Shown here: positions 14,163 through 26,300 of the stretch, one piece after another
How positions within the stretch are numbered: the first letter of the stretch is position 1
Layout: the number at the start of each line of letters is the position of its first letter
From: Chloroflexota bacterium
Lineage (GTDB): Bacteria; Chloroflexota; Dehalococcoidia; SZUA-161
Reading direction: 5' to 3'
Assembly (NCBI GenBank): GCA_021787935.1
Contig: JAJYLC010000016.1
Coordinates: 1 to 37,110, forward strand
DNA length: 37,110 bases
Program-made: the position numbers and the translations under genes
The notes under the pieces: model-generated
What the model was told of the DNA's origin: nothing
The model's database searches: none
What the model saw: the letters and a program-made list of their open reading frames with translations, nothing else

Positions 14163-14197
14163 ACATAAATCTCTGAAACTCAATTTTGGAGTCTGAA

Positions 14198-15412
14198 ATG
14201 ACCAAAACCATCGCTGAAATCAACGAGAAAATCGCCAAGGGCCAGGCTGTGGTGGTGACCGCCGAAGAGGTCATAGACATCGCAAAAAAGAAGGGTGTAG
14301 CCAGGGCTGCCCAGGAGATAGACGTGGTGACCACCGGTACGTTCGGCCCTATGTGTTCGTCAGGCGCTTATTTCAACCTGGGGCATGCCAAGCCCCGCAT
14401 GAAAATCGGCGGGGGCACAGCTTACCTGAACAATGTGCCTGCCTACACAGGATTCGCTGCCGTAGATATTTTCCTCGGTGCAACAGCCATGCCTGATGAT
14501 GATCCCCGAAACAAGATTCATCCCGGTGACTTCCCTTACGGCGGAGGGCATGTCATCGAGGAGTTGGTAGCCGGCAAGGATGTCAGGTTGGTAGCCACTT
14601 CCTATGGCACTGACTGCTATCCCAGGCGAAAAGTCGAAACCTTGATCAACCTGAAGAGCATCAACGAAGCTGTGCTATTCAACGTTCGAAATGCCTACCA
14701 GAACTACAATATAGCGGTTAATCTCAGCGACCGGACAATTTACACCTACATGGGAGTGTTGAAACCCCATCTGGGTAACGCCACCTACTCCACCGCGGGC
14801 CAGCTTTCGCCGCTGTTCAACGACCCGCTCTATAAAACAATCGGCATAGGCACAAAGATATTCCTCGGAGGCGGCACCGGCTACGTGGCCTGGCAGGGCA
14901 CGCAGCACAATCCCAACGTAGTGCGCACCGATAAGGGCGTGCCCAAGCGTGGAGCCGGAACGCTGGCGGTGATAGGTGACCTGAAGCAAATGAAGCCGCG
15001 GTGGCTGGTAGGAACCAGCTTCATAGGCTATGGCTGCACCATGACCGTCGGCATAGGAGTTCCCATACCGATACTGTCTGAAGAAATCCTCATGTACACA
15101 ACGGTCAAGGATGAGGAGATATTCGCCCCTATCGTGGACTACTCTGACGCTTATCCCCAGCGGCGCCCCGACATCCTCGGGGAAATAGATTACGCCCAAC
15201 TAAAGAGCGGCAAGATTAAGGTTCAAGGCAAAGATGTGCCCACCGCCTCGCTTTCAAGCTATGCCAGGGCGGTCGAAATCTCTAACATACTCAAAGACTG
15301 GATAAAGAAGGGAGAATTCCTGCTGACACAGCCTGTAGCGCCACTGCCCGGGCCGGAATCGGGGATAACCTTCAAGCCCATGCCAGACCGTCCATTTGAG
15401 AAGATAGACTGA
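14198..15412 (+). CDS. Homocysteine biosynthesis protein (COG1900 / DUF39)
   Basis: Proteins of this family are needed in Methanosarcina for making homocysteine from aspartate semialdehyde and a sulfur donor, bypassing O-acyl-homoserine. The 404-aa protein has the family blocks TTGTFGPMCSSGAYFNLGH (Cys53) and ATSYGTDCYPRRK (Cys140); two conserved cysteines are thought to carry sulfur. Gly-rich loops (KIGGGTAYLNNV, FLGGGTGYVAW) fill the middle. No C-terminal CBS pair is present, unlike some archaeal forms. The ATG at 14198 has TTGGAG upstream; a TTG at 14186 is in frame but overlaps that site. The electron-transfer partner follows 17 bp later. Confidence 0.92.
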   Translation: MTKTIAEINEKIAKGQAVVVTAEEVIDIAKKKGVARAAQEIDVVTTGTFGPMCSSGAYFNLGHAKPRMKIGGGTAYLNNVPAYTGFAAVDIFLGATAMPDDDPRNKIHPGDFPYGGGHVIEELVAGKDVRLVATSYGTDCYPRRKVETLINLKSINEAVLFNVRNAYQNYNIAVNLSDRTIYTYMGVLKPHLGNATYSTAGQLSPLFNDPLYKTIGIGTKIFLGGGTGYVAWQGTQHNPNVVRTDKGVPKRGAGTLAVIGDLKQMKPRWLVGTSFIGYGCTMTVGIGVPIPILSEEILMYTTVKDEEIFAPIVDYSDAYPQRRPDILGEIDYAQLKSGKIKVQGKDVPTASLSSYARAVEISNILKDWIKKGEFLLTQPVAPLPGPESGITFKPMPDRPFEKID

Positions 15413-15843: not shown

Positions 15844-16569
15844 ATGTATGAGCCAAGAACCTACAGAGACTGGGTCAGCGATAAGGACCTGGTCTCCTTT
15901 TCGGTAGTAGTCAAAGAAACCGACCTCCGCATCAGAGCCAGGCGCGACCTTACACCCAAGGCGCTCTCGGCAACCCAACGCTACCGCGCTGACCTGGAGA
16001 CATATATAAAATCGCACCCTGTCTTCCTGACCACTCTCAAACCTTTCGAAGTCGAACCGGATGCTCCACCTATCGTTAAGGAGATGGCTGATGCCGCCCG
16101 GGAAGTAGGCGTGGGACCTATGGCGGCGGTTGCAGGTGCTATAGCCGAGAGGGTGGGCAAAGAGCTTCTTCCCTATTCTGAAGAGGTCATCGTGGAAAAC
16201 GGCGGTGACATCTTCCTGAAGACTTCGAAAGAAAGGCTCATAGGTGTCTATGCCGGAGAATCCAAATTCACTAAGAAAATTGCCTTCTCCATTAAGCCCA
16301 AGGAAACGCCCCTGGGCGTTTGCACTTCCTCCGGAACAGTGGGACATTCCCTCAGCTTCGGATACGCCGATGCAGTCATAGTCTTCTCGCCTTATACAGC
16401 CCTGGCCGACGCCGCAGCCACCGCCATAGGCAACAGGGTCAGGATAGTCGAAGATATACCAGATGCACTCGAATTTGCCCAGAGTATAAAAGACCTTAGG
16501 GGTGTAGCTATCATAAAAGGTGATAATATGGGGCTCTGGGGACAGATTAGACTAGCAGCCGCCGACTGA
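15844..16569 (+). CDS. UPF0280 family protein (COG2122, ApbE-like fold)
   Basis: The 241-aa protein belongs to UPF0280, a family related in fold to the flavin transferase ApbE and linked to the same homocysteine route. Visible blocks are PMAAVAGAIAERVG, VIVENGGDIFL, CTSSGTVGHSLSFGYADAV and ALADAAATAIGNRV, which line the ApbE-type pocket. The ATG at 15844 comes 3 bp after the ferredoxin stop and has no clear ribosome site, so translation is probably coupled. Its exact reaction is not known to me. Confidence 0.88.
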   Translation: MYEPRTYRDWVSDKDLVSFSVVVKETDLRIRARRDLTPKALSATQRYRADLETYIKSHPVFLTTLKPFEVEPDAPPIVKEMADAAREVGVGPMAAVAGAIAERVGKELLPYSEEVIVENGGDIFLKTSKERLIGVYAGESKFTKKIAFSIKPKETPLGVCTSSGTVGHSLSFGYADAVIVFSPYTALADAAATAIGNRVRIVEDIPDALEFAQSIKDLRGVAIIKGDNMGLWGQIRLAAAD

Positions 16570-16583
16570 AAAAAGTGATTCTG

Positions 16584-17735
16584 CTACGTTATCTGGGACT
16601 CTTCACCGTACACCCGCCCCTTCCACTTGACACCGGCGCCGGTAAGGTACTGGTAGCTGGCATAGAAACTGATAAGCACCAGGAAGGCCATACCGATAGG
16701 ATGCAGAATAATGAATGTCTTTGGCTGGGAAAAGCGTCGGCCTGCTAAAAAGCGCGCTAAGAACAGTATAGCCACCTGGAGCATGACCAGTATCTCCCAT
16801 GCCATGGCAGGCTGCGCGAGCAGCAAACCGTAAAGCAGCCATAAAAAGGGCGCCAGAAACAGAAGCACTGCCGCGGCTATCAACCCTACCATAGTGACAA
16901 TCGATAACGAAGCTACTGTGTAGAACCACCGGGTGATGCCATCCCACATCGTGCCGAACTCGCGGTACATCTGGCAGGAGACCAGCGACGACAGATCCAG
17001 CGTCAACTGTTTGTAGTGATGCCGCGACACCTCTCTGCCCAGCCAGACATCCTCTACTATACGAGATTTCACCGCTTCATGTCCGCCGATGCTGCGATAT
17101 TCATTGGCCGAGAAAAACAGGAACTGCCCGATGGCCACCGAGGGCATAGTGCCCCGCGAGCGCTGCAGCCACCAAAACGGCAGCCCGCAAAGGAGTATAA
17201 AGTAAAACATGATAGGAAGGGCCGTCTTCTGCCAGAGCGAGGTTGTCCGCTGATAGGGGAAGCCTGAGATTAGCGCGGCCCGTGAGACAAGGGCAACCCC
17301 CAGAATTCTACGCAGCATCGAGGGGGCATGAACGGTATCGGCATCGGTAAACAGCAGCCAGGAACCTCTAGCCTCCTGGGCAAGCTGGTGACAGGCAAAC
17401 GGTTTGCCCGCCCAACCCTCGGGCAAAGGTTTTCCATGCAGCAGTCTGACCCGGCCGTCTTCGGCAGCAATCCGAGATACAATATCGCCTGTCCCGTCAG
17501 TCGAGGAGTCATCCAGCACAAGTACCTCAAAATTGGGGTAGTCCTGTTGGCGCAAGGAATCGAGGCAGACTCCGATGTTAGCCTCTTCGTTCCTTGCAGG
17601 GATGAGAACGGAGATTAAAGGCGCGGGCTCAGGCAGGTCGATGTTTGACTTGGGTTTTCTTAGGGCTTTTAGATTCAACAGAAGATTGAGCAGAATCGCA
17701 GCCAGCACAATAGAGACTATCTGTTGGTAAAGCAT
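16584..17735 (-). CDS. Membrane glycosyltransferase, family 2 (HpnB/CrtQ-like)
   Basis: The 383-aa protein has an N-terminal anchor (about 3-22), a GT-A catalytic domain (about 40-270) and three to four C-terminal membrane spans. SVLIPARNEEANIGVCLDSL opens the fold, VLVLDDSSTDGT gives the first acidic motif, LLFTDADTVH is the metal-binding DxD, and VEDVWLGREV is the acidic acceptor motif in place of the usual QxxRW. Family relatives act on carotenoid, hopanoid or other lipid acceptors. The ATG follows GGAG eight bases upstream. It lies 21 bp downstream of the PlsY-like gene, which favours a glycolipid role. Confidence 0.88.
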   Translation of the reverse strand: MLYQQIVSIVLAAILLNLLLNLKALRKPKSNIDLPEPAPLISVLIPARNEEANIGVCLDSLRQQDYPNFEVLVLDDSSTDGTGDIVSRIAAEDGRVRLLHGKPLPEGWAGKPFACHQLAQEARGSWLLFTDADTVHAPSMLRRILGVALVSRAALISGFPYQRTTSLWQKTALPIMFYFILLCGLPFWWLQRSRGTMPSVAIGQFLFFSANEYRSIGGHEAVKSRIVEDVWLGREVSRHHYKQLTLDLSSLVSCQMYREFGTMWDGITRWFYTVASLSIVTMVGLIAAAVLLFLAPFLWLLYGLLLAQPAMAWEILVMLQVAILFLARFLAGRRFSQPKTFIILHPIGMAFLVLISFYASYQYLTGAGVKWKGRVYGEESQIT

Positions 17736-17756: not shown

Positions 17757-18344
17757 TTAGCCAACGCGCGCCTTTCTGGCCTCAACTACATCGTCACCTG
17801 TTACCAGTTCTTTGACCAGTGAGGGCATCACGATTAAGCATCCGGCCAGGGCATATTGCCAGGAATCATACCATAGCCCCAGCACTATGGGCATAGAGAT
17901 GCGGAAGAGCCTATTGCTCAGCACATGCCGCCTGGTGACTACCATAGGTAATATATACCAGGCTGCCATGATGAGCACCGCCAAAACATTTATCAGGACC
18001 AGGCCTGAGACCCCAATAGTCATCCCCTGACCGCCCCCGCGTCTCAGCCAAATGGGCCAGTTGCAGCCAATGACAGCCGCTACCACAATTGTAAAGCTGG
18101 CCCAGAGCTCACCCACCATGAAGTAGGCGATAAGTATGCAAATCCCCGCCTTTGCCATCTCAACCAGGAAGGCCAGCAGAGCCGGGCGTTTCCCGCCATG
18201 CAGGAGCACAGCCGTCACCGTGGCGTTGCCCGTGCCCATGGTGCGGATATCCTTGCCGGTGAAGAGACGCATGGAGAGGTATGAAGTGGGGATACTCCCG
18301 ATTAAATAACCTATCACTATAAGTATTATGAATGTTGTTGCCAT
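17757..18344 (-). CDS. PlsY-like (DUF205) glycerol-3-phosphate acyltransferase, divergent
   Basis: The 195-aa protein has about five membrane spans and three motifs of the acyl-phosphate-dependent acyltransferase PlsY: GSIPTSYL (16-23), DIRTMGTGNATVTAVLLHGG (32-51) and CNWPIWLRRGGGQGM in place of the usual FKGGKG. The last motif is altered (no Lys), so the substrate may differ from glycerol 3-phosphate; it may be a specialised paralogue. The ATG has GGGAG upstream and a good promoter at 18390-18418. It is co-transcribed with the glycosyltransferase. Confidence 0.8.
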   Translation of the reverse strand: MATTFIILIVIGYLIGSIPTSYLSMRLFTGKDIRTMGTGNATVTAVLLHGGKRPALLAFLVEMAKAGICILIAYFMVGELWASFTIVVAAVIGCNWPIWLRRGGGQGMTIGVSGLVLINVLAVLIMAAWYILPMVVTRRHVLSNRLFRISMPIVLGLWYDSWQYALAGCLIVMPSLVKELVTGDDVVEARKARVG

Positions 18345-19943: not shown

Positions 19944-19965
19944 ATTTTAGTGCGACATTTTCCTC

Positions 19966-19995
19966 TTGACAAAATAAGAACTTATGTTCTACTAT
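19966..19995 (+). promoter_or_regulatory. Promoter with LexA/DinR-type SOS box
   Basis: TTGACA (19966-19971) and TACTAT (19990-19995) are 18 bp apart. Between them lies AGAACTTATGTTCT (19977-19990), a perfect palindromic arm pair in the GAAC-N4-GTTC form bound by Gram-positive-type LexA (DinR). An operator filling the spacer would block RNA polymerase. The first phage-like gene starts 33 bp downstream with AGGAGG. Confidence 0.7.
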
Positions 19996-20028
19996 TGCCT
20001 TGCTCTAATTAATGAGAGGAGGTGAAAC

Positions 20029-20421
20029 ATGGCGGAGGAGACCAGAGATACGGAGACGCAGGACAAGGATAATCTGCAAGCGCGCATAACGCAGCTCGAA
20101 CAAGGCATCGCCTCTAAAGATGGCGAGTTGACTGCTGCCAAGCAGTTGCTGTCCGGCGCAGTGGCAAAATACCGCGCTGCTGTCCTTGCCAGCGTGCCCG
20201 GCATGCCCGAGGAACTGGTCAAGGGAGAGTCAATAGATGAGATAGACGCCTCTCTGGAACAGGCTCGGGGCATAGTAAGCAAGGTCAGGCAGCAGCTCGA
20301 GGCAGAGGCTGAGGCTAACAAGGTGCCCACAGGCGCACCGCCTCGTATGCCGCAGGATCTCTCGGCGCTGTCCCCGGCAGAAAAGATAGCCTACGCCCTG
20401 AAGAAATCCCTGAGAATGTAG
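20029..20421 (+). CDS. Phage scaffold-like coiled-coil protein
   Basis: The 130-aa protein is acidic and helical. DNLQARITQLEQGIASKDGE (about 14-33) is a coiled coil, and the C-terminus is PxxLSALSPAEKIAYALKKS, a short basic helix as in capsid scaffold proteins. It sits directly upstream of the major capsid gene, the usual place for a scaffold. It has a perfect AGGAGGTGAAAC ribosome site and is the first gene after the SOS-type promoter. The name rests on order, size and composition, not on sequence identity. Confidence 0.65.
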   Translation: MAEETRDTETQDKDNLQARITQLEQGIASKDGELTAAKQLLSGAVAKYRAAVLASVPGMPEELVKGESIDEIDASLEQARGIVSKVRQQLEAEAEANKVPTGAPPRMPQDLSALSPAEKIAYALKKSLRM

Positions 20422-20617
20422 AGCGCCCTTGTTTCATTCCTCTCCCTTGACGGGAGAGGCTAGGTGAGGGTGAAAGTCTATCGGCGCTCAGGCGTGAGGA
20501 ACTCAATTGTAGGAGCGCACTGAGTTCCCCCTTTTCTAAAGGGGGTAAGGGGGATTAGGAATTCAACTGTAGGGGCGAGGCAGTGTCTCGCCCAATATTA
20601 AAAAGGAGAGAAAGAAC
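20422..20617. repeat. Cluster of dispersed palindromic repeats
   Basis: Three repeat types are stacked in the gap: CTCTCCCTTGACGGGAGAG with its GGTGAGGGTG tail (about 20440-20474), TTCCCCCTTTTCTAAAGGGGG with a GGGGGATTA tail (20525-20557), and GTAGGGGCGAGG...CTCGCCC (20569-20593). All recur elsewhere in the window. The capsid gene's ribosome site follows directly. Confidence 0.75.
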
Positions 20618-21508
20618 ATGGCACTAACACTAGCAGAAGCAGCCAAACTTTCCAACGACGTCCTGTTAATGGGCGTCATCGAGACCATTATCTATGATAG
20701 CCCGGTGCTTCAGGTGCTGCCCTTCATCGAGATTGTGGGCAACGGCCTCACCTACAACCAGGAGAACCAGGCCCCCACCGTGGCCTTCTACGATGTGGGC
20801 GATACCTGGGCAGAGTCCACGCCCACCTTCACCCAGCAGACCGCCACTCTCAAAATCCTGGGCGGCGACGCCGACGTAGACAACTTCCTGGCTAAAACCC
20901 GCAGCAACATCCAGGACCTGGAAGCTGCTATTGTGCAGCTCAAGGCCAAAGCGGTGCAGCAGAAGTTCGACGACACCTTCATCAACGGCGATACCGCCGT
21001 CGATGCCAAGTCCTTCAATGGCATTGACAAATTATGCGCCGCTGGACAGACGCTCAGCATGGGCGCAGATGGAGGCATACTTACCCTGGAGAAACTCGAC
21101 GAGCTGATCGACAAGATAAAGACCGGCAAGCCCGATATGCTGCTCATGAGCAAACGCAGCCGGCGCAAGCTCACTGCTTTGAGCAGGGGCTCCGGCAGCG
21201 GCATCATGGAGTTCGACCGCAACCAGTTCGGGCAGATGGTGCAGTATTACAGCGGCATCCCCATAGGCGTCAACGACTGGATTTCCGACAGCAAGACTGT
21301 GGGCGTATCCACCGACTGCTCCACTATCTACACACTCAGCTTCGGCGAGGGTTCGGTGGCAGGTCTGACCGCACCCGGCGGCTTGCAGGTGGAGAAAGTG
21401 GGCAGTCTGGAGACTAAAGACGCCAGCCGCACCAGGGTCAAGTGGTATGTAGCGCTGGCCCTGTTCAATACCCTGAAGCTGGCCAAGCTTACCGGCGTCC
21501 GCAGCTAA
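20618..21508 (+). CDS. Phage major capsid protein (HK97-like)
   Basis: The 296-aa protein resembles a tailed-phage major capsid family common in environmental Chloroflexi-type phages. Features are the N-terminal helix MALTLAEAAKLSNDVLLMGV, then LPFIEIVGNGLTYNQE, YDVGDTWAESTPTFTQ, LKILGGDADVDNFLAKTRSN and LEAAIVQLKAKAVQQKFDDT (spine helix, about 107-126). The C-terminus (RTRVKWYVALALFNTLKLAKLTG) is the usual last strand and helix. The frame is clean. No prohead protease is encoded nearby and there is no long N-terminal delta domain, so assembly would rely on the scaffold-like protein. AAAGGAGAG site upstream. Confidence 0.85.
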   Translation: MALTLAEAAKLSNDVLLMGVIETIIYDSPVLQVLPFIEIVGNGLTYNQENQAPTVAFYDVGDTWAESTPTFTQQTATLKILGGDADVDNFLAKTRSNIQDLEAAIVQLKAKAVQQKFDDTFINGDTAVDAKSFNGIDKLCAAGQTLSMGADGGILTLEKLDELIDKIKTGKPDMLLMSKRSRRKLTALSRGSGSGIMEFDRNQFGQMVQYYSGIPIGVNDWISDSKTVGVSTDCSTIYTLSFGEGSVAGLTAPGGLQVEKVGSLETKDASRTRVKWYVALALFNTLKLAKLTGVRS

Positions 21509-21516
21509 GGAAAACA

Positions 21517-21640
21517 GTAGGGGCGTTCAACTGAACGCCCCTGGACCTTCCAAAATTCCCCCTTTTCTAAAGGGGGATACAGGGGGATTACGTAGGGGCG
21601 AGGTTACCTCGCCCTCAGGTTGGAGCGGGTGCTCCAACCT
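21517..21640. repeat. Four stacked palindromic repeats
   Basis: GTAGGGGCGTTCAACTGAACGCCCCT type (21517-21542), TTCCCCCTTTTCTAAAGGGGG type (21556-21590), GTAGGGGCGAGGTTACCTCGCCC type (21592-21614) and AGGTTGGAGC-GGGT-GCTCCAACCT (21617-21640). They fill almost the whole gap between the capsid and connector genes. Confidence 0.85.
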
Positions 21641-21657
21641 ACCCAGAGGAGGGAACT

Positions 21658-22257
21658 ATGAACCTCAATGATATGAGGTCTCAAATCCGTAAAGACCTCC
21701 ACGACGAGGACTCTCAAAACTACAGATGGACGGACAGCGAGCTGGAACGTCACATCGACCACGCCCTGCGCGAGCTGAGCCTGTCCTGCCCACTCGAGGC
21801 CAAAGCAACGCTCAGCACTACCGCTGAGAGCCGTGACCTGTCACTCTCATCCCTCAGCGACCTGGTGGAGGTCGAGGCTGTGGAATATCCGGTGAGCAAC
21901 TATCCACCATCCTATGTCCGCTTCAGCACCTGGGCAGATACTCTGACCCTGCTTATAGACAGCCTGCCCGGTGAGAGCGAGGATGTTTATATCTACTACG
22001 GCAAGCTGCATGTCCTGGACGCCAGCAGTTCCACCATACCCGCCGGGCTTGAAGACCTGGTGGCGCTGGGCGCAGCCGCCTATGCCGCTATCGAGTGGGC
22101 CAGCTTTGCTGCCAATCGCGTTAATGTGGGGGGCTCTGAGGTCTGGCGCAGCTATCTCACCTGGGGACAGGACAGGCTGGCTGCCTTCATGAAAGGTCTG
22201 GCCCAGCACAGTAAGAAGAATACCGTGCGGGTACGCCAGCTTTACCCCGTTTTTTAG
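21658..22257 (+). CDS. Phage head-tail connector-like protein
   Basis: The 199-aa protein starts with NLNDMRSQIRKDLHDEDSQN and WTDSELERHIDHALRELS, the helical start typical of gp6/gp15-like head-completion adaptors, followed by a beta-rich middle (EVEAVEYPVSNYP, VYIYYGKLHVLD) and a C-terminal helix. Its position right after the capsid gene is the expected one for a connector. The ribosome site is AGAGGAGG. The assignment is by order and general sequence character. Confidence 0.7.
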   Translation: MNLNDMRSQIRKDLHDEDSQNYRWTDSELERHIDHALRELSLSCPLEAKATLSTTAESRDLSLSSLSDLVEVEAVEYPVSNYPPSYVRFSTWADTLTLLIDSLPGESEDVYIYYGKLHVLDASSSTIPAGLEDLVALGAAAYAAIEWASFAANRVNVGGSEVWRSYLTWGQDRLAAFMKGLAQHSKKNTVRVRQLYPVF

Positions 22258-22419
22258 GCATAAAATGCAAACGATTTATAAATGGGGGAGTGCAGAGGGG
22301 ATTCACCCCTCTTCCTGGGGCCTGTCCTGAGCCCTGTCCTGAGCTCGCCGAAGGATTGTCGAAGGATGTCCCCCAAATTTCTAATTCCCCCCAAGATTGG
22401 GGGACACAGGGGGTTGAAG
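22258..22419. repeat. Repeat-filled gap
   Basis: It contains a CCTGTCCTGAGC...CGCCGAAGGATTGTCGAAGGA repeat (about 22320-22366) and a TTCCCCCCAAGATTGGGGGA type palindrome with GGGGGTTGA tail (22385-22415). An ORF reading through this gap into the next gene is made of repeat sequence only. Confidence 0.7.
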
Positions 22420-22623
22420 ATGGGTTGGAAAACATTTAACGACAGGCTGGCATTCATAACCGTATTAGTGATAGTAGCGCTGTGGCTGGCTCACAGGTGG
22501 CTCAGCCTGCCCAACGAGGTCATCGGCGCCACCATCTTGCAGTTCGGCCTGATTATGCAGCACTACTTCCGCAAGGCATCTCAAAGCGTTGTCCGAAAAC
22601 GCAAAAGCAGGGGCAATTCATAA
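22420..22623 (+). CDS. Small membrane protein, holin-like
   Basis: The 67-aa protein has two hydrophobic segments (about 11-24, AFITVLVIVALWLA, and about 34-48) and a very basic C-terminus (RKASQSVVRKRKSRGNS). Size, topology and position among phage structural genes fit a holin, but no lysin gene is present, so function is uncertain. The start is the ATG at 22420 after GGGGG. Confidence 0.55.
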   Translation: MGWKTFNDRLAFITVLVIVALWLAHRWLSLPNEVIGATILQFGLIMQHYFRKASQSVVRKRKSRGNS

Positions 22624-22672
22624 ATCGCCCCACGATGATCTATGGGTAGTCTGGAGCATCTGCTACAGACAT

Positions 22673-22698
22673 GTAGGGGCGAGGCAATGCCTCGCCCC
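22673..22698. repeat. GTAGGGGC-type palindrome
   Basis: GTAGGGGCGAGGCAATGCCTCGCCCC type, ending 14 bp before the next start codon. It lies in an 89-bp gap. Confidence 0.85.
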
Positions 22699-22712
22699 AA
22701 GAGGAATTTAAC

Positions 22713-24701
22713 ATGAGAATGCTCTCGCCAACACTTCTCGCAGCTCAAAAATCCAGCGCACGCCTGCCTTACGTCAAGGTAGAAATACTGGACAGGGTGG
22801 CAAGCATAACCCGTCTCAACTGGACCAGGCTCTACAGCGGCAGCGAGCCCGATTTCCATCACGGCGTTACCATGCCCGGCGACGGCTCCCTGATTCGAGC
22901 CAGAGTAGACCCCTCCGGCTACCAGCTCTACCGTCAGCGCGTTGCCAGCCCAGGTCCCGGCAGCGACTTCAGCCCCTGGACAGGGGTATGCACCGTGTCC
23001 AGTGTTTCCGGCATCGTCCTGACCAGCCGCGGCTTCAGGGTGCTCCTGTTCTATGTCGACACAGACCAGAGGACAATCTTACTCAGAGAGAGCACCGACT
23101 ATGGCGCTACCTTCGGCAGCCCCACATCAATAACCACCGCTGCCTCGACAGTAGGCTGGCTTGCTGCAGCCATCAACAACAGCGACGTGGTCTGCCTTTT
23201 CTACTCGGTAAACGGCACGGTTTATAGCATAAAAAGGACAGGCGGAAGCTGGGGTTCGCCCTCCGCCTGGACTAACAGCGCTGCCGCCATTACAGGCATT
23301 GGCTGTGTTTACCAGGGTGACTGGGATCTCGTTATCTGCGGACAGGACAGCGCCGGTAACTACAAGGTCTGGACCTGCGTTTACGGCGATGGCTACTCCC
23401 AGAGCCCCGGCACCTGGTCGGACCTGGCAGAGCTTACTATAGCCAGCCCCAGCTCAAATATTGAGTTCCGTTGTCCTTATGTCAACTTCGCTGGCATCTT
23501 CCGTATCTTCTTCGTGGAGAAATACAGCGGCACAGCCTCTTACAGCCGCCCCTACTGGTCTCACTCATTGACCACAGCCGAATTTACCTCCAACCTGTGG
23601 CGCGAGCCGGTGCCCTTTAACTTAGTCTCAAGCTGCGGCCTGGCTATGGTGCACAGCGGGTCATATGCCTGGCTGTCCGCGCCATCAGGAGTATGGCGCG
23701 CTGCTCTCCTGCCCTCCTCCGTAGATGTTACCGATGATATTATCGCGCTGAGCGCCCAGACCAACCCTTCCTCAGGCAAGATTCAAATCGAACTCAGAAA
23801 CGACGACGACCGCTACTCCAGCCCCCCGTCTCCTATCAAGCTGGGCTCAGAAGTGCTGGTCAGCCCGGGATACTGTACCGCCTCAGGCACGGAAGTATCC
23901 AGCGGCCCTGCTTACTGGATAGAGGGCTGGACATACCTGTCCATAGGTAGGACAGCCGCCCCCGGCTGTCACTCCCTCATTCTCCACGCCTCCGATGCCT
24001 GGAGCTTACTGGAGAGATGGAAAGCCAGGCGTCAGTTCGCCTGGGCATCCGGCAGTGTCAGCATCTTTCAGTTGCTCAACTTTATTCTGGCGCGCGCTGG
24101 CCTGGAGTTCTCCTCGTTCAGTCACAGCGATGCCCTGGTAAACTTTCACCCCGCCTTCACTATGAATCCCGGAGAATCCGGCAGGTCTGCCGTGCTGCGT
24201 CTTCTGTCCCAAGTGCCCGACCTCCTGTTCTTCAGAGGCTACTGCGGCTACATCATCAACCCGCAGGCGTCTGACTCCAGCGTCTACTCCTATGGCAGCG
24301 ACCACGCCATACTGGAAGCAGAGTACACCCAACGCGCCGGGGAAGCTAACCGTGTGCAGGTCTTCGGTCTCCCATCCTCCGTCACCATCACCGAGGATTG
24401 GGACTGGGAAGAGATCGACCTGGTGTACGACCGGCTGGCGCAGGTACACGACATAAACCTGGACACCGCAGCGGAAGCTCACGCGCGGGGCGAGGCTATG
24501 CTCAGGCACGCCGCCATCAACTCAATGGATGGCCGCATAGTAGTGCCCATGAACTGCGGCCAGGAGTTGTACGACGTCATTGATATAACAGACGCCCTCG
24601 CCGGCCTGAGCGCAGCCAAGAGGCGTGTCCTTTCGCTCCATCATACCTATGATACCCGGAAAGGCATTTACAACTTGAAGATAGGTCTGGGTTCACCCTG
24701 A
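22713..24701 (+). CDS. Phage tail hub/baseplate-like protein with inserted beta-propeller
   Basis: The 662-aa protein has three parts. Residues 1-60 are a short N-terminal domain with a YVKVEILDRV strand. Residues about 60-340 are repeated beta-hairpins of sialidase/BNR character (RVLLFYVDTDQRTILLRES, SDVVCLFYSVNGTVYSIKR, WDLVICGQDSAGNYKVWT), which predicts a sugar-binding propeller. Residues about 345-662 resemble tail-hub proteins (gp27/gpD type): IQIELRNDDDRYSSP, FQLLNFILARAGLEF, GEANRVQVFGLPSS and the terminal YDTRKGIYNLKIGLGSP. Such a protein would sit at the tail tip and touch the cell surface. It has a GAGGA site and a second in-frame ATG two codons in. No tape-measure or tube gene precedes it. 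Confidence 0.65.
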   Translation: MRMLSPTLLAAQKSSARLPYVKVEILDRVASITRLNWTRLYSGSEPDFHHGVTMPGDGSLIRARVDPSGYQLYRQRVASPGPGSDFSPWTGVCTVSSVSGIVLTSRGFRVLLFYVDTDQRTILLRESTDYGATFGSPTSITTAASTVGWLAAAINNSDVVCLFYSVNGTVYSIKRTGGSWGSPSAWTNSAAAITGIGCVYQGDWDLVICGQDSAGNYKVWTCVYGDGYSQSPGTWSDLAELTIASPSSNIEFRCPYVNFAGIFRIFFVEKYSGTASYSRPYWSHSLTTAEFTSNLWREPVPFNLVSSCGLAMVHSGSYAWLSAPSGVWRAALLPSSVDVTDDIIALSAQTNPSSGKIQIELRNDDDRYSSPPSPIKLGSEVLVSPGYCTASGTEVSSGPAYWIEGWTYLSIGRTAAPGCHSLILHASDAWSLLERWKARRQFAWASGSVSIFQLLNFILARAGLEFSSFSHSDALVNFHPAFTMNPGESGRSAVLRLLSQVPDLLFFRGYCGYIINPQASDSSVYSYGSDHAILEAEYTQRAGEANRVQVFGLPSSVTITEDWDWEEIDLVYDRLAQVHDINLDTAAEAHARGEAMLRHAAINSMDGRIVVPMNCGQELYDVIDITDALAGLSAAKRRVLSLHHTYDTRKGIYNLKIGLGSP

Positions 24702-24721
24702 AGGGAGGAGTCTAATATCCC

Positions 24722-24858
24722 ATGTCATTGCGAGTCCCGATTTATCGGGATGACTCCTCGCTTGCGCTCGGAGCAGGCTCCGCAATCTCTGGTGCTCGTA
24801 AGTAGGGAAAGGGCACGGTGAGATTGCCGCGGCTCCTTCGATGGCCTCGCAACGACAT
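24722..24858. repeat. Long imperfect palindrome, TGTCATTGCGAG family (copy 1)
   Basis: It begins TGTCATTGCGAG, has CCGCAATCTC and GAGATTGCCGCGG in the middle and ends CTCGCAACGACA, so the ends are inverted repeats. Copy 2 is at 25002-25099. Non-coding. Confidence 0.8.
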
Positions 24859-24906
24859 ATAGAAGAGTCCTTCTCTGGGAAAGGCAGCCAGGAAAATTAA
24901 AAACCT

Positions 24907-24952
24907 GTACGGGCGCGGTTTCCGCGCCCTGGGCGAGGCGACCTCGCCCCTA
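24907..24952. repeat. Double GTAGGGGC-type palindrome
   Basis: Two hairpins in tandem: GGGCGCGG-TTT-CCGCGCCC and GGGCGAGG-CGA-CCTCGCCC, bounded by GTAC/CTAC. The strand also carries the usual CCCCTAC end. Confidence 0.8.
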
Positions 24953-25001
24953 CGGAATGTTCATAGCTCGTTATAAGGAAATATAGGAGCGAGGATAATC
25001 A

Positions 25002-25099
25002 TGTCATTGCGAGCGTAGTGAAGCAATCTCTCGCACCTGTTGTTACGAAGTAGCACGGGGAGATTGCCGCGGCCTCCTTCGGATGGCCTTGCAATGATA
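25002..25099. repeat. Long imperfect palindrome, TGTCATTGCGAG family (copy 2)
   Basis: TGTCATTGCGAGCGTAGTGA, then AGCAATCTC and GAGATTGCCGCGG, ending TTGCAATGATA. It is shorter than copy 1 and lies on the same strand. Confidence 0.8.
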
Positions 25100-25109
25100 T
25101 AGAGAGGAA

Positions 25110-25236
25110 TCCCCCCTTTTGCAAAGCAGGCCAGAGGGATTACAGAAATTCCTCTCCCTTGACGGGCTTCGCCGTGAGCTCAGCCGAACGGAGAGGCTAG
25201 GCTTGTCCTGAAATCATTGAAGGTGAGGGTGAAACA
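25110..25236. repeat. Two further repeats before the spike-like gene
   Basis: A degraded CCCCCTTTT...GGGATTA palindrome (25110-25142) and a CTCTCCCTTGACGGGCTTCG...GGAGAGGCTAGG repeat with GGTGAGGGTGAAACA tail (25150-25236). The tail supplies the ribosome site of the next gene, as its relative near 20474 does not. Confidence 0.65.
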
Positions 25237-25449
25237 ATGATTAAAAAAGGAATCCTGAAATCTTTCGACAGTGGCACTTATCTAGCCACCGTCCAAATCG
25301 CGGGCAGCCTGAGCGTCTGGCTCGACAACATCCCCACCTCGAGGGCGATCGCCAGCGCCGACATGGTCGCCGGCCGCAACGTCGCCATTCTTTTCATTGA
25401 CCCGAGCAACTTCTCCGATGCTGTCATTATTGCTGCTTGGACTTCTTAA
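25237..25449 (+). CDS. Small phage tail/baseplate-spike-like protein
   Basis: The 70-aa protein is all-beta: GILKSFDSGTYLATVQIAGS, VWLDNIPTSRAI, MVAGRNVAILFIDPSNFSD, AVIIAAW. It looks like a short OB-type barrel of the kind found in phage baseplate spike proteins. No membrane span or Cys. Start ATG follows GGTGAGGG. It overlaps the convergent membrane-protein gene by 23 bp at the 3' ends. Confidence 0.6.
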   Translation: MIKKGILKSFDSGTYLATVQIAGSLSVWLDNIPTSRAIASADMVAGRNVAILFIDPSNFSDAVIIAAWTS

Positions 25450-25741
25450 GGTCCCTCAAACAATACCACGCCCAAAAGGCAACTCCAATAAAGAATATAA
25501 TGCTAACCCATGACAGGGCAGTCCTATTTCCACCTGCTCCCGCTATTATCGCTCCCAACCCAGCACCACCGAACAGACTACTGCCTGCTATCCCATATGA
25601 TCGAATCCACCTCTCATTACTTTTTTCCTCCATCTGCTTGAGCTTATTACGTATGTCTTCATTACACATCTTGATAGAGTTCAGTTCATCCATTAACCCC
25701 TTCGCTCCGTCAGCAGGTTGCACTTTTCCCGCATCACTCAT
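25427..25741 (-). CDS. Small membrane protein with coiled coil, convergent to the island
   Basis: The 104-aa protein has an N-terminal helical/coiled-coil part (MDELNSIKMCNEDIRNKLKQ, about 17-36) and two membrane spans (about 50-70, Gly/Ala-rich; about 76-94, SIIFFIGVAFWAWYCL) with a Lys-rich end. A perfect AGAGGAGG site precedes the ATG at 25741, so I take it as real although it overlaps the 3' end of the spike-like gene. Function unknown; a phage-encoded holin or immunity protein is possible. Confidence 0.65.
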   Translation of the reverse strand: MSDAGKVQPADGAKGLMDELNSIKMCNEDIRNKLKQMEEKSNERWIRSYGIAGSSLFGGAGLGAIIAGAGGNRTALSWVSIIFFIGVAFWAWYCLRDLKKSKQQ

Positions 25742-25933
25742 GCTATCCTCCTCTAAGAAACCTTCCTCTTATTATACTATCGTTTCCCCCTCGTCCTCTC
25801 ACGGGCGTCGAGCTCTATTCACCGGTTTGTTGAAGCTCATCCAGTCTTTTTCCTTGTCTTCCTGGTTGCCCTTCGCTGGGAAGGCGGCTCTCCGCTCCGC
25901 TCCGTGCCGTCCGCCCTGCGCGACATCTTCCCC

Positions 25934-25962
25934 TTGACAAATGAGAACTGTTGTTCTAAAAT
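25934..25962 (+). promoter_or_regulatory. Second SOS-type promoter, no gene behind it
   Basis: TTGACA (25934-25939), 17-bp spacer and TAAAAT (25957-25962), with AGAACTGTTGTTCT (25944-25957) in the spacer, again GAAC-N4-GTTC. No convincing ORF follows before 26338, so it may drive a non-coding RNA or be a remnant. Confidence 0.6.
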
Positions 25963-26102
25963 GACGCCATATCATCGGGACTGAATGTACACAGCATCCC
26001 GACCCAATTCAAGAGCAGCAAACAGCATCTAAAGAGCCTCACGATTGTGGGCTGATGGCTTTAAGCCAATAGCTGGTTGCATCGGGCTCTTGGAAAGCCC
26101 TG

Positions 26103-26259
26103 GAAAATTGAATATGTGGGGTTTCGTTCGTGGGATTTGTTTTGGGGAAATTGCTCCTTGACACAGGGACGTTTTTTACCCGGGCGGTTCCCGCTGCGTT
26201 CGGCTGAAGCTGATCACGGCCCGCGAAATCCCGGCGTCCGGCGACCCGAAAATTGAATA
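26103..26259. repeat. Segment flanked by 12-bp direct repeats
   Basis: GAAAATTGAATA occurs at 26103-26114 and 26248-26259. The 133 bp between them have no convincing gene; a 77-codon minus-strand ORF there has a Pro/Asn/Arg-rich, low-quality sequence. The direct repeats could be target-site duplications or simple recombination sites. Confidence 0.4.
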
Positions 26260-26300
26260 ATTCATGCGACATAAAACCAGGGCCGTGCTATGCCCTACCC

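Follow-up and report, generated by a model that had tools for sequence, protein, structure and literature searches.

Structural genes of the block

The window analysed here is a complete contig (C46) of 37,110 bases from a genome of 2.68 Mb in 169 contigs (G000), whose relatives are Chloroflexota labelled mostly Dehalococcoidia. It carries a block of phage-like structural genes behind a promoter with a LexA-type operator (Table 1). A first-pass annotation had described six structural open reading frames (ORFs) for scaffold-like, major capsid, connector-like, holin-like, tail-hub and spike-like proteins, in a block extending to position 25741. We find that all of the structural ORFs are indeed open and that the capsid, connector, hub and spike assignments are supported, but that nothing beyond a membrane-like sequence speaks for a holin in the 67-aa ORF. 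The scaffold-like identity is drawn from a conserved position and a weak match to PHROG 233. The block is also shorter than first described; the last conserved gene ends at 25449, and we place the end of the block there because the reverse-strand 104-aa ORF has no relative in the loci fetched.

The hub protein matched no sequence family, and its assignment comes from its AlphaFold model (pLDDT 92), for which Foldseek returned Mu gp44, the MuSo2 43 kDa tail protein, contractile-injection hubs and T4 gp27, with E values for phage and contractile-injection hubs down to 9e-18. The model contains a beta-propeller-like insert at approximately residues 90–340. Similarly, the top PDB match for the model of the 70-aa OB-fold protein is the P2 gpV spike (E = 2e-3). 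The fold of the C-terminal part of the hub is common to the gp27, Mu gp44 and VgrG hubs, and that of the 70-aa protein to the gpV and gp5 OB spikes; unlike gp27, Mu gp44 and VgrG, the hub described here has the propeller-like insertion and no recognised tube or baseplate wedge genes alongside it. In many loci of relatives, a variable cassette encoding LamG lectin-like or fibre-like proteins stands between the capsid and connector genes (for example, L072:11434-12087); the cassette, which is absent from the window, is likely a fast-changing binding module.

Table 1. Coordinates of the block, its promoter, the packaging operon and neighbouring genes (window positions unless a locus is named)
Feature	Position	Strand	Basis or remark
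Scaffold-like protein, 130 aa	20029-20421	+	PHROG 233, E = 0.04; position 5' of capsid in >60 loci
Major capsid protein, HK97 type, 296 aa	20618-21508	+	PHROG 212, 7e-78; PF05065 Phage_capsid, 3e-8
Head-tail connector (adaptor), 199 aa	21658-22257	+	PF24175 SU10_adaptor, 1e-8; synteny conserved
Membrane-like ORF, 67 aa	22420-22623	+	No family match; present only in sister genus
Baseplate-hub protein, 662 aa	22713-24701	+	gp27 / Mu gp44 fold by AlphaFold and Foldseek
OB-fold spike-like protein, 70 aa	25237-25449	+	AlphaFold pLDDT 94; present in 48 loci
Membrane-like ORF, 104 aa	25427-25741	-	Overlaps end of OB gene; no relative in loci fetched
Composite promoter	19952-19996	+	GCGACATTTTCC element; -35 TTGACA; LexA-type operator AGAACTTATGTTCTA (19977-19991); -10 TACTAT
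Packaging operon on contig C1	L113:9967-13472		TerS-like 116 aa, TerL 461 aa, HTH 92 aa, portal 471 aa
Homocysteine-biosynthesis-like gene	14186-15412	+	Chromosomal neighbour
Gene for 241-aa protein	15844-16569	+	Chromosomal neighbour
Glycosyltransferase gene	16584-17735	-	Chromosomal neighbour
PlsY-like acyltransferase gene	17757-18344	-	Chromosomal neighbour

A packaging operon on a second contig

The first-pass annotation had noted that the block lacks phage packaging and integration genes, and the block itself indeed contains neither a terminase or portal gene nor one for an integrase, a lysin or a tape measure. The terminase and portal are nevertheless present in the genome. In relatives, genes for a TerS-like protein, TerL, a small helix-turn-helix (HTH) protein with a cysteine motif and the portal stand 5' of the capsid gene; when we searched this genome with the TerL and portal of a relative, we found both genes intact, in single copy and adjacent on contig C1, in an operon that also stands among housekeeping genes and is preceded by the same promoter as the block. 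The particle genes of this genome are split over two unlinked contigs, C46 and C1.

The Walker A motif of TerL is found in 41 of 41 proteins, and the remaining terminase motifs in most full-length TerL proteins. The TerS assignment is based on gene position. The TerS-like proteins (n = 34) have a median length of 119 aa, and no DNA-binding domain was found in the two that were searched with Pfam or PHROGs; small terminases of gene transfer agents (GTAs) have been reported to have none (PMC11841831).

A shared promoter with a LexA-type operator

The pattern common to the promoters of the two operons is GACA-N8-TTGAC-N5/6-AGAAC-N4-GTNCTA. At the scaffold gene the box AGAACTTATGTTCTA is placed between the -35 and -10 elements, and the SOS-like box at 19978-19989 is conserved in relatives. 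On C1 the composite promoter lies at L113:9797-9837, 5' of the TerS-TerL-portal operon, with the box AGAACATATGTGCTA 144 bp 5' of the TerS-like gene, and the same GCGACATTTTCCTCTTGACA stretch precedes the boxes of both operons. When slightly relaxed letters were allowed in a search of 80 GTDB loci, we found 42 copies of the composite, distributed over 37 of the loci; none is on the opposite strand, and all 42 stand before HTH/portal, scaffold or TerS genes. The bare DNA pattern matches 14 of 99 genomes, compared to none for a reversed-pattern control. When sites in G000, G001 and G004 are excluded, in which the composite is also found on a dispersed repeat, 19 of the 20 remaining sites directly precede these operons and one precedes a fibre-like gene.

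In all probability, the core of the box, GAACN4GTTC, represents the class's LexA operator: 19 of 23 genomes have a perfect core in the 100 bp 5' of lexA, while 0.04 were expected from shuffled sequences. The recA promoters carry the core less regularly. SOS control, which the first-pass annotation had proposed for the block, is on this sequence evidence strongly predicted for both operons, since LexA-type operators lie in both promoters as they do 5' of lexA. The HTH protein might bind the GACA element.

Distribution, inheritance and selection

The capsid gene is found in 44 of the 99 relative genomes, which rejects the idea of a lone relic of a single strain. TerL is found in 56 of the 99 and both genes in 40 (Fisher P = 2e-10). 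The apparent absence of the capsid from G001, a genome of the same genus, is due to a contig end; the start of the scaffold gene is there, behind the same promoter, but the contig stops ∼280 bp later. Gene order is conserved across the bacterial class.

Comparison with the sister genus indicates that the encoded proteins are under purifying selection; that proteins are still selected had been proposed from the open frames amid repeat-filled gaps. All frames are intact, while the spacers, which contain dispersed repeats, are ∼50% identical. The dN/dS ratios, which are approximate with synonymous distances near saturation, are 0.16 for the scaffold, 0.08 for the capsid, 0.13 for the connector, 0.14 for the 67-aa ORF and 0.19 for the hub, all well below 1.

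The capsid tracks the host families in its inheritance. Its distances are a median of 0.54 of the RpoB distances (30 genomes), and the capsid and RpoB trees have 10 of 27 splits in common, compared to a mean of 0.25 and a maximum of 3 after shuffling. The chromosomal setting is also shared. Housekeeping genes flank the block, with glycosyltransferase, PlsY-like acyltransferase and methyltransferase genes on the 5' side and transglutaminase-like, nitroreductase and HhH-GPD glycosylase genes on the 3' side. In L045 (G003) and L040/L119 (G006), the region 5' of the scaffold gene holds the same chromosomal neighbours as the window, in the same order and at 62–82% identity, so that three genera share them; in G003 and G006, these neighbour genes stand between the packaging and structural operons. 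The third-position GC of the block genes is similar to that of their neighbours.

A contiguous prophage genome was not seen in the block, which has no integrase, no attachment sites, no repressor and no replication genes. No integrase was seen at the structural or packaging locus of this genome, and no replication genes were seen adjoining either operon. There is no tRNA within the 37,110-base window, the only match in an Rfam scan of the window is 23S rRNA at its end, and a PADLOC search gave no match.

Relation to phages

The closest phage proteins are 44% identical for the capsid, 30% for TerL and 24% for the portal; the hub had no phage match. In a tree of 36 sampled Chloroflexota capsids and eight from phages or phage-plasmids, the Chloroflexota sequences group as a single clade separate from the others, with support of 99/98; for this tree, the program warns of long phage branches. 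Phages with a PHROG 212 capsid (Pseudomonas Ab18/phiW8-1-like, Xanthomonas and Paenibacillus Halcyone phages) and related phage-plasmids belong to the same capsid family and likewise have the order terminase, portal, head proteins, capsid. Unlike the Chloroflexota operons, these phages have complete genomes of at least 40 kb, and in Halcyone a tape measure stands a few genes 3' of the capsid.

We considered a free Chloroflexota phage in IMG/VR and rejected it, as only short contigs with the same block were found. Of 191 related stretches in IMG/VR, 80 loci (L136-L215) were fetched, on contigs of 2–27 kb; the longer of these contigs carry this same block, with the OB gene as its end, and no further recognised phage module. 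These 'viral' contigs may be mislabelled host DNA, and the system described here may account for this set of short database entries.

Interpretation and alternatives

The reading that we favour, with a probability of about 0.72, sees in the block the structural half of a phage particle system that is split, has been domesticated by the host and probably works like a GTA. Judged from the sequences, the best reading is an ancient, LexA-controlled, GTA-like system whose domestication was independent; our literature search, made without most subscription journals, found no report of a GTA in Chloroflexota. Among the options offered by the first-pass annotation, a GTA rather than a recent prophage is the best supported, although a maintained system is better supported than the relic it had envisaged. 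The checks that the annotation had suggested came out in favour of domestication, with synteny kept across a bacterial class, dN/dS of 0.08–0.19, and terminase and portal genes elsewhere in the genome behind the same promoter.

In such a system, DNA damage would inactivate LexA and, as the shared operators suggest, release the two unlinked operons together. The scaffold and capsid would assemble heads on the portal, and the terminase would fill them with cell DNA. This packaging would probably be non-specific, because the TerS-like protein has no detected DNA-binding domain. The connector, hub and OB spike would then close the particle and might deliver the DNA to relatives, with the hub propeller possibly binding cells. 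More tentatively, the system could be one more independent case of a phage domesticated into a GTA, with an unusual tube-less particle in which the portal and connector are joined directly to a gp27-type hub with its propeller and OB spike, and with the two operons and a family of dispersed structured RNAs wired directly to LexA.

In the GTAs of Alphaproteobacteria (RcGTA, CcGTA and BaGTA) and of Brachyspira (BhGTA/VSH-1), too, the host controls genes for a phage head, for packaging and for a tail tip; these GTAs likewise exhibit vertical co-inheritance, genes at more than one locus and a TerS without a detectable DNA-binding domain (PMC9662315, PMC11841831). The system proposed here differs from those GTAs in its phylum, in that the phage relatives of its TerL, portal and capsid are all distant, in having LexA-type operators directly within the promoters of both operons, and in that neither a tail tube or tape measure nor lysis genes were found. 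The GTAs of known genetic basis belong to three groups, each exapted independently, which occur in Alphaproteobacteria and spirochaetes (PMC9662315). New GTAs in distant bacteria have been described as hard to find (PMC11841831). If our reading is correct, it points to DNA-damage-triggered gene exchange in a phylum that is abundant and mostly uncultured and has organohalide respirers among its members, and to a LexA-wired, phage-derived particle system maintained across the class around Dehalococcoidia, for which the promoter signature could be used to find and test further members.

Several observations weigh against a GTA-like system. No lysis gene or tail tube was identified and no match to the tape measure family PF10145 was found in this genome, nor in eight of nine others, which leaves release and delivery without an explanation. 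The distribution is patchy and some copies are broken (the portal of G030 is in two pieces and the capsid of G060 in three); some lineages are losing the system. The capsid tree leaves its deep branches unresolved and does not group family f1 as one clade; as the Mantel correlation is also modest (r = 0.27), some horizontal movement is possible. Boxes resembling the operator stand, too, before some non-repair genes and before a dispersed RNA-like repeat. A low-carbon amino-acid composition, compared to phage homologues, is reported for alphaproteobacterial GTAs, although it is not universal. This signature is absent here, as the capsid has a side-chain carbon of 2.73 compared to 2.71 in eight phage or phage-plasmid homologues (P = 0.90). 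Finally, almost identical traces would be expected of a PBSX-like particle that is SOS-induced and packages DNA but does not deliver it.

This last possibility, a defective-prophage bacteriocin that is induced by the SOS response, packages cell DNA and kills or blocks competitors, is the main rival, and we judge it unlikely. PBSX of Bacillus subtilis is an SOS-induced, chromosomal phage remnant that packages host DNA; its genes, among them those for a full tail and for lysis, form a single contiguous prophage-like cluster. The LexA-type operators on both operons, the retention of the capsid, the terminase and a possibly cell-binding hub, and the lack of identified lysis or delivery genes are all compatible with such a particle. 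In contrast to PBSX, the genes here lie in two separate operons, and no tail genes were found; with no tape measure found in this genome or in eight of nine others, a killing tail is not evident. A GTA would account equally well or better for the class-wide maintenance and for a TerS-like protein in which no DNA-binding domain was detected.

A decayed or recently acquired prophage, the simpler alternative of the first-pass annotation, would be consistent with scattered genes, repeats in the gaps, patchy distribution and the broken copies in some lineages, but is refuted as a general explanation: the genes, their order and their promoter are the same across a bacterial class, the two unlinked operons retain that promoter, the dN/dS ratios are low, the chromosomal site is the same in several genera and the third-position GC resembles that of the neighbours. 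We rate somewhat lower the reading that the genes belong to a phage satellite or phage-like parasite of the present day, made up of several pieces and spreading horizontally among Chloroflexota. Some deep capsid branches do disagree with RpoB, and G003 and G004 are among the few genomes with two or more capsid loci. To our knowledge, however, known satellites carry an integrase, and neither integrase nor replication genes were seen beside the operons here; moreover, the operons stand among housekeeping genes of kept order, and in all six other families from which two members were sampled, the capsids pair in agreement with the RpoB tree. A structural compartment or virus-like particle without DNA (encapsulin-like), which the strong selection on an HK97-fold capsid might suggest, is the least probable of these readings, because a portal, TerL with its catalytic motifs, connector and hub are kept alongside and with them the packaging motor, and a tailocin is disfavoured by the capsid, portal and terminase and by the lack of a PF10145 match in this genome.

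LexA-type boxes elsewhere and a dispersed RNA-like repeat

A box AGAACnnnTGTGCTA with a -10-like stretch after it is found in the promoter of a purL-like gene (G003:C224:4853, L348; G006:C39:10192, L349), and a box of the same type in the promoter of an rplI-like gene in this genome (G000:C44:3969, L126), both gene names being taken from sequence. These boxes are either odd LexA targets or a coincidental promoter shape. A LexA-type box also stands 5' of a DUF72-like gene, likewise named from sequence, in two families (G006:C69:352, L352; G030:C1:1414319, L350), which suggests that this gene is a further conserved SOS gene of the class.

The dispersed element mentioned above, of ∼370 bp, lies in the window at 25918-26290 on the forward strand and has 12 copies in this genome; the others are on contigs C10, C15, C19, C37, C43, C60, C90, C103, C107, C109 and C135 (loci L121-L125, L129 and L131-L135). 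There are further copies in G001 and probably in G004. Rfam has no family for these RNA-like repeats. The element starts with the same LexA-type composite promoter, which is followed by strongly foldable sequence; the alifold energies are -89 and -92, compared to -36 and -52 for column-shuffled alignments, and 12 pairs have compensatory changes once the G001 copies are included. The element may be a structured RNA that is induced by the SOS response, or a repeat that carries a promoter.

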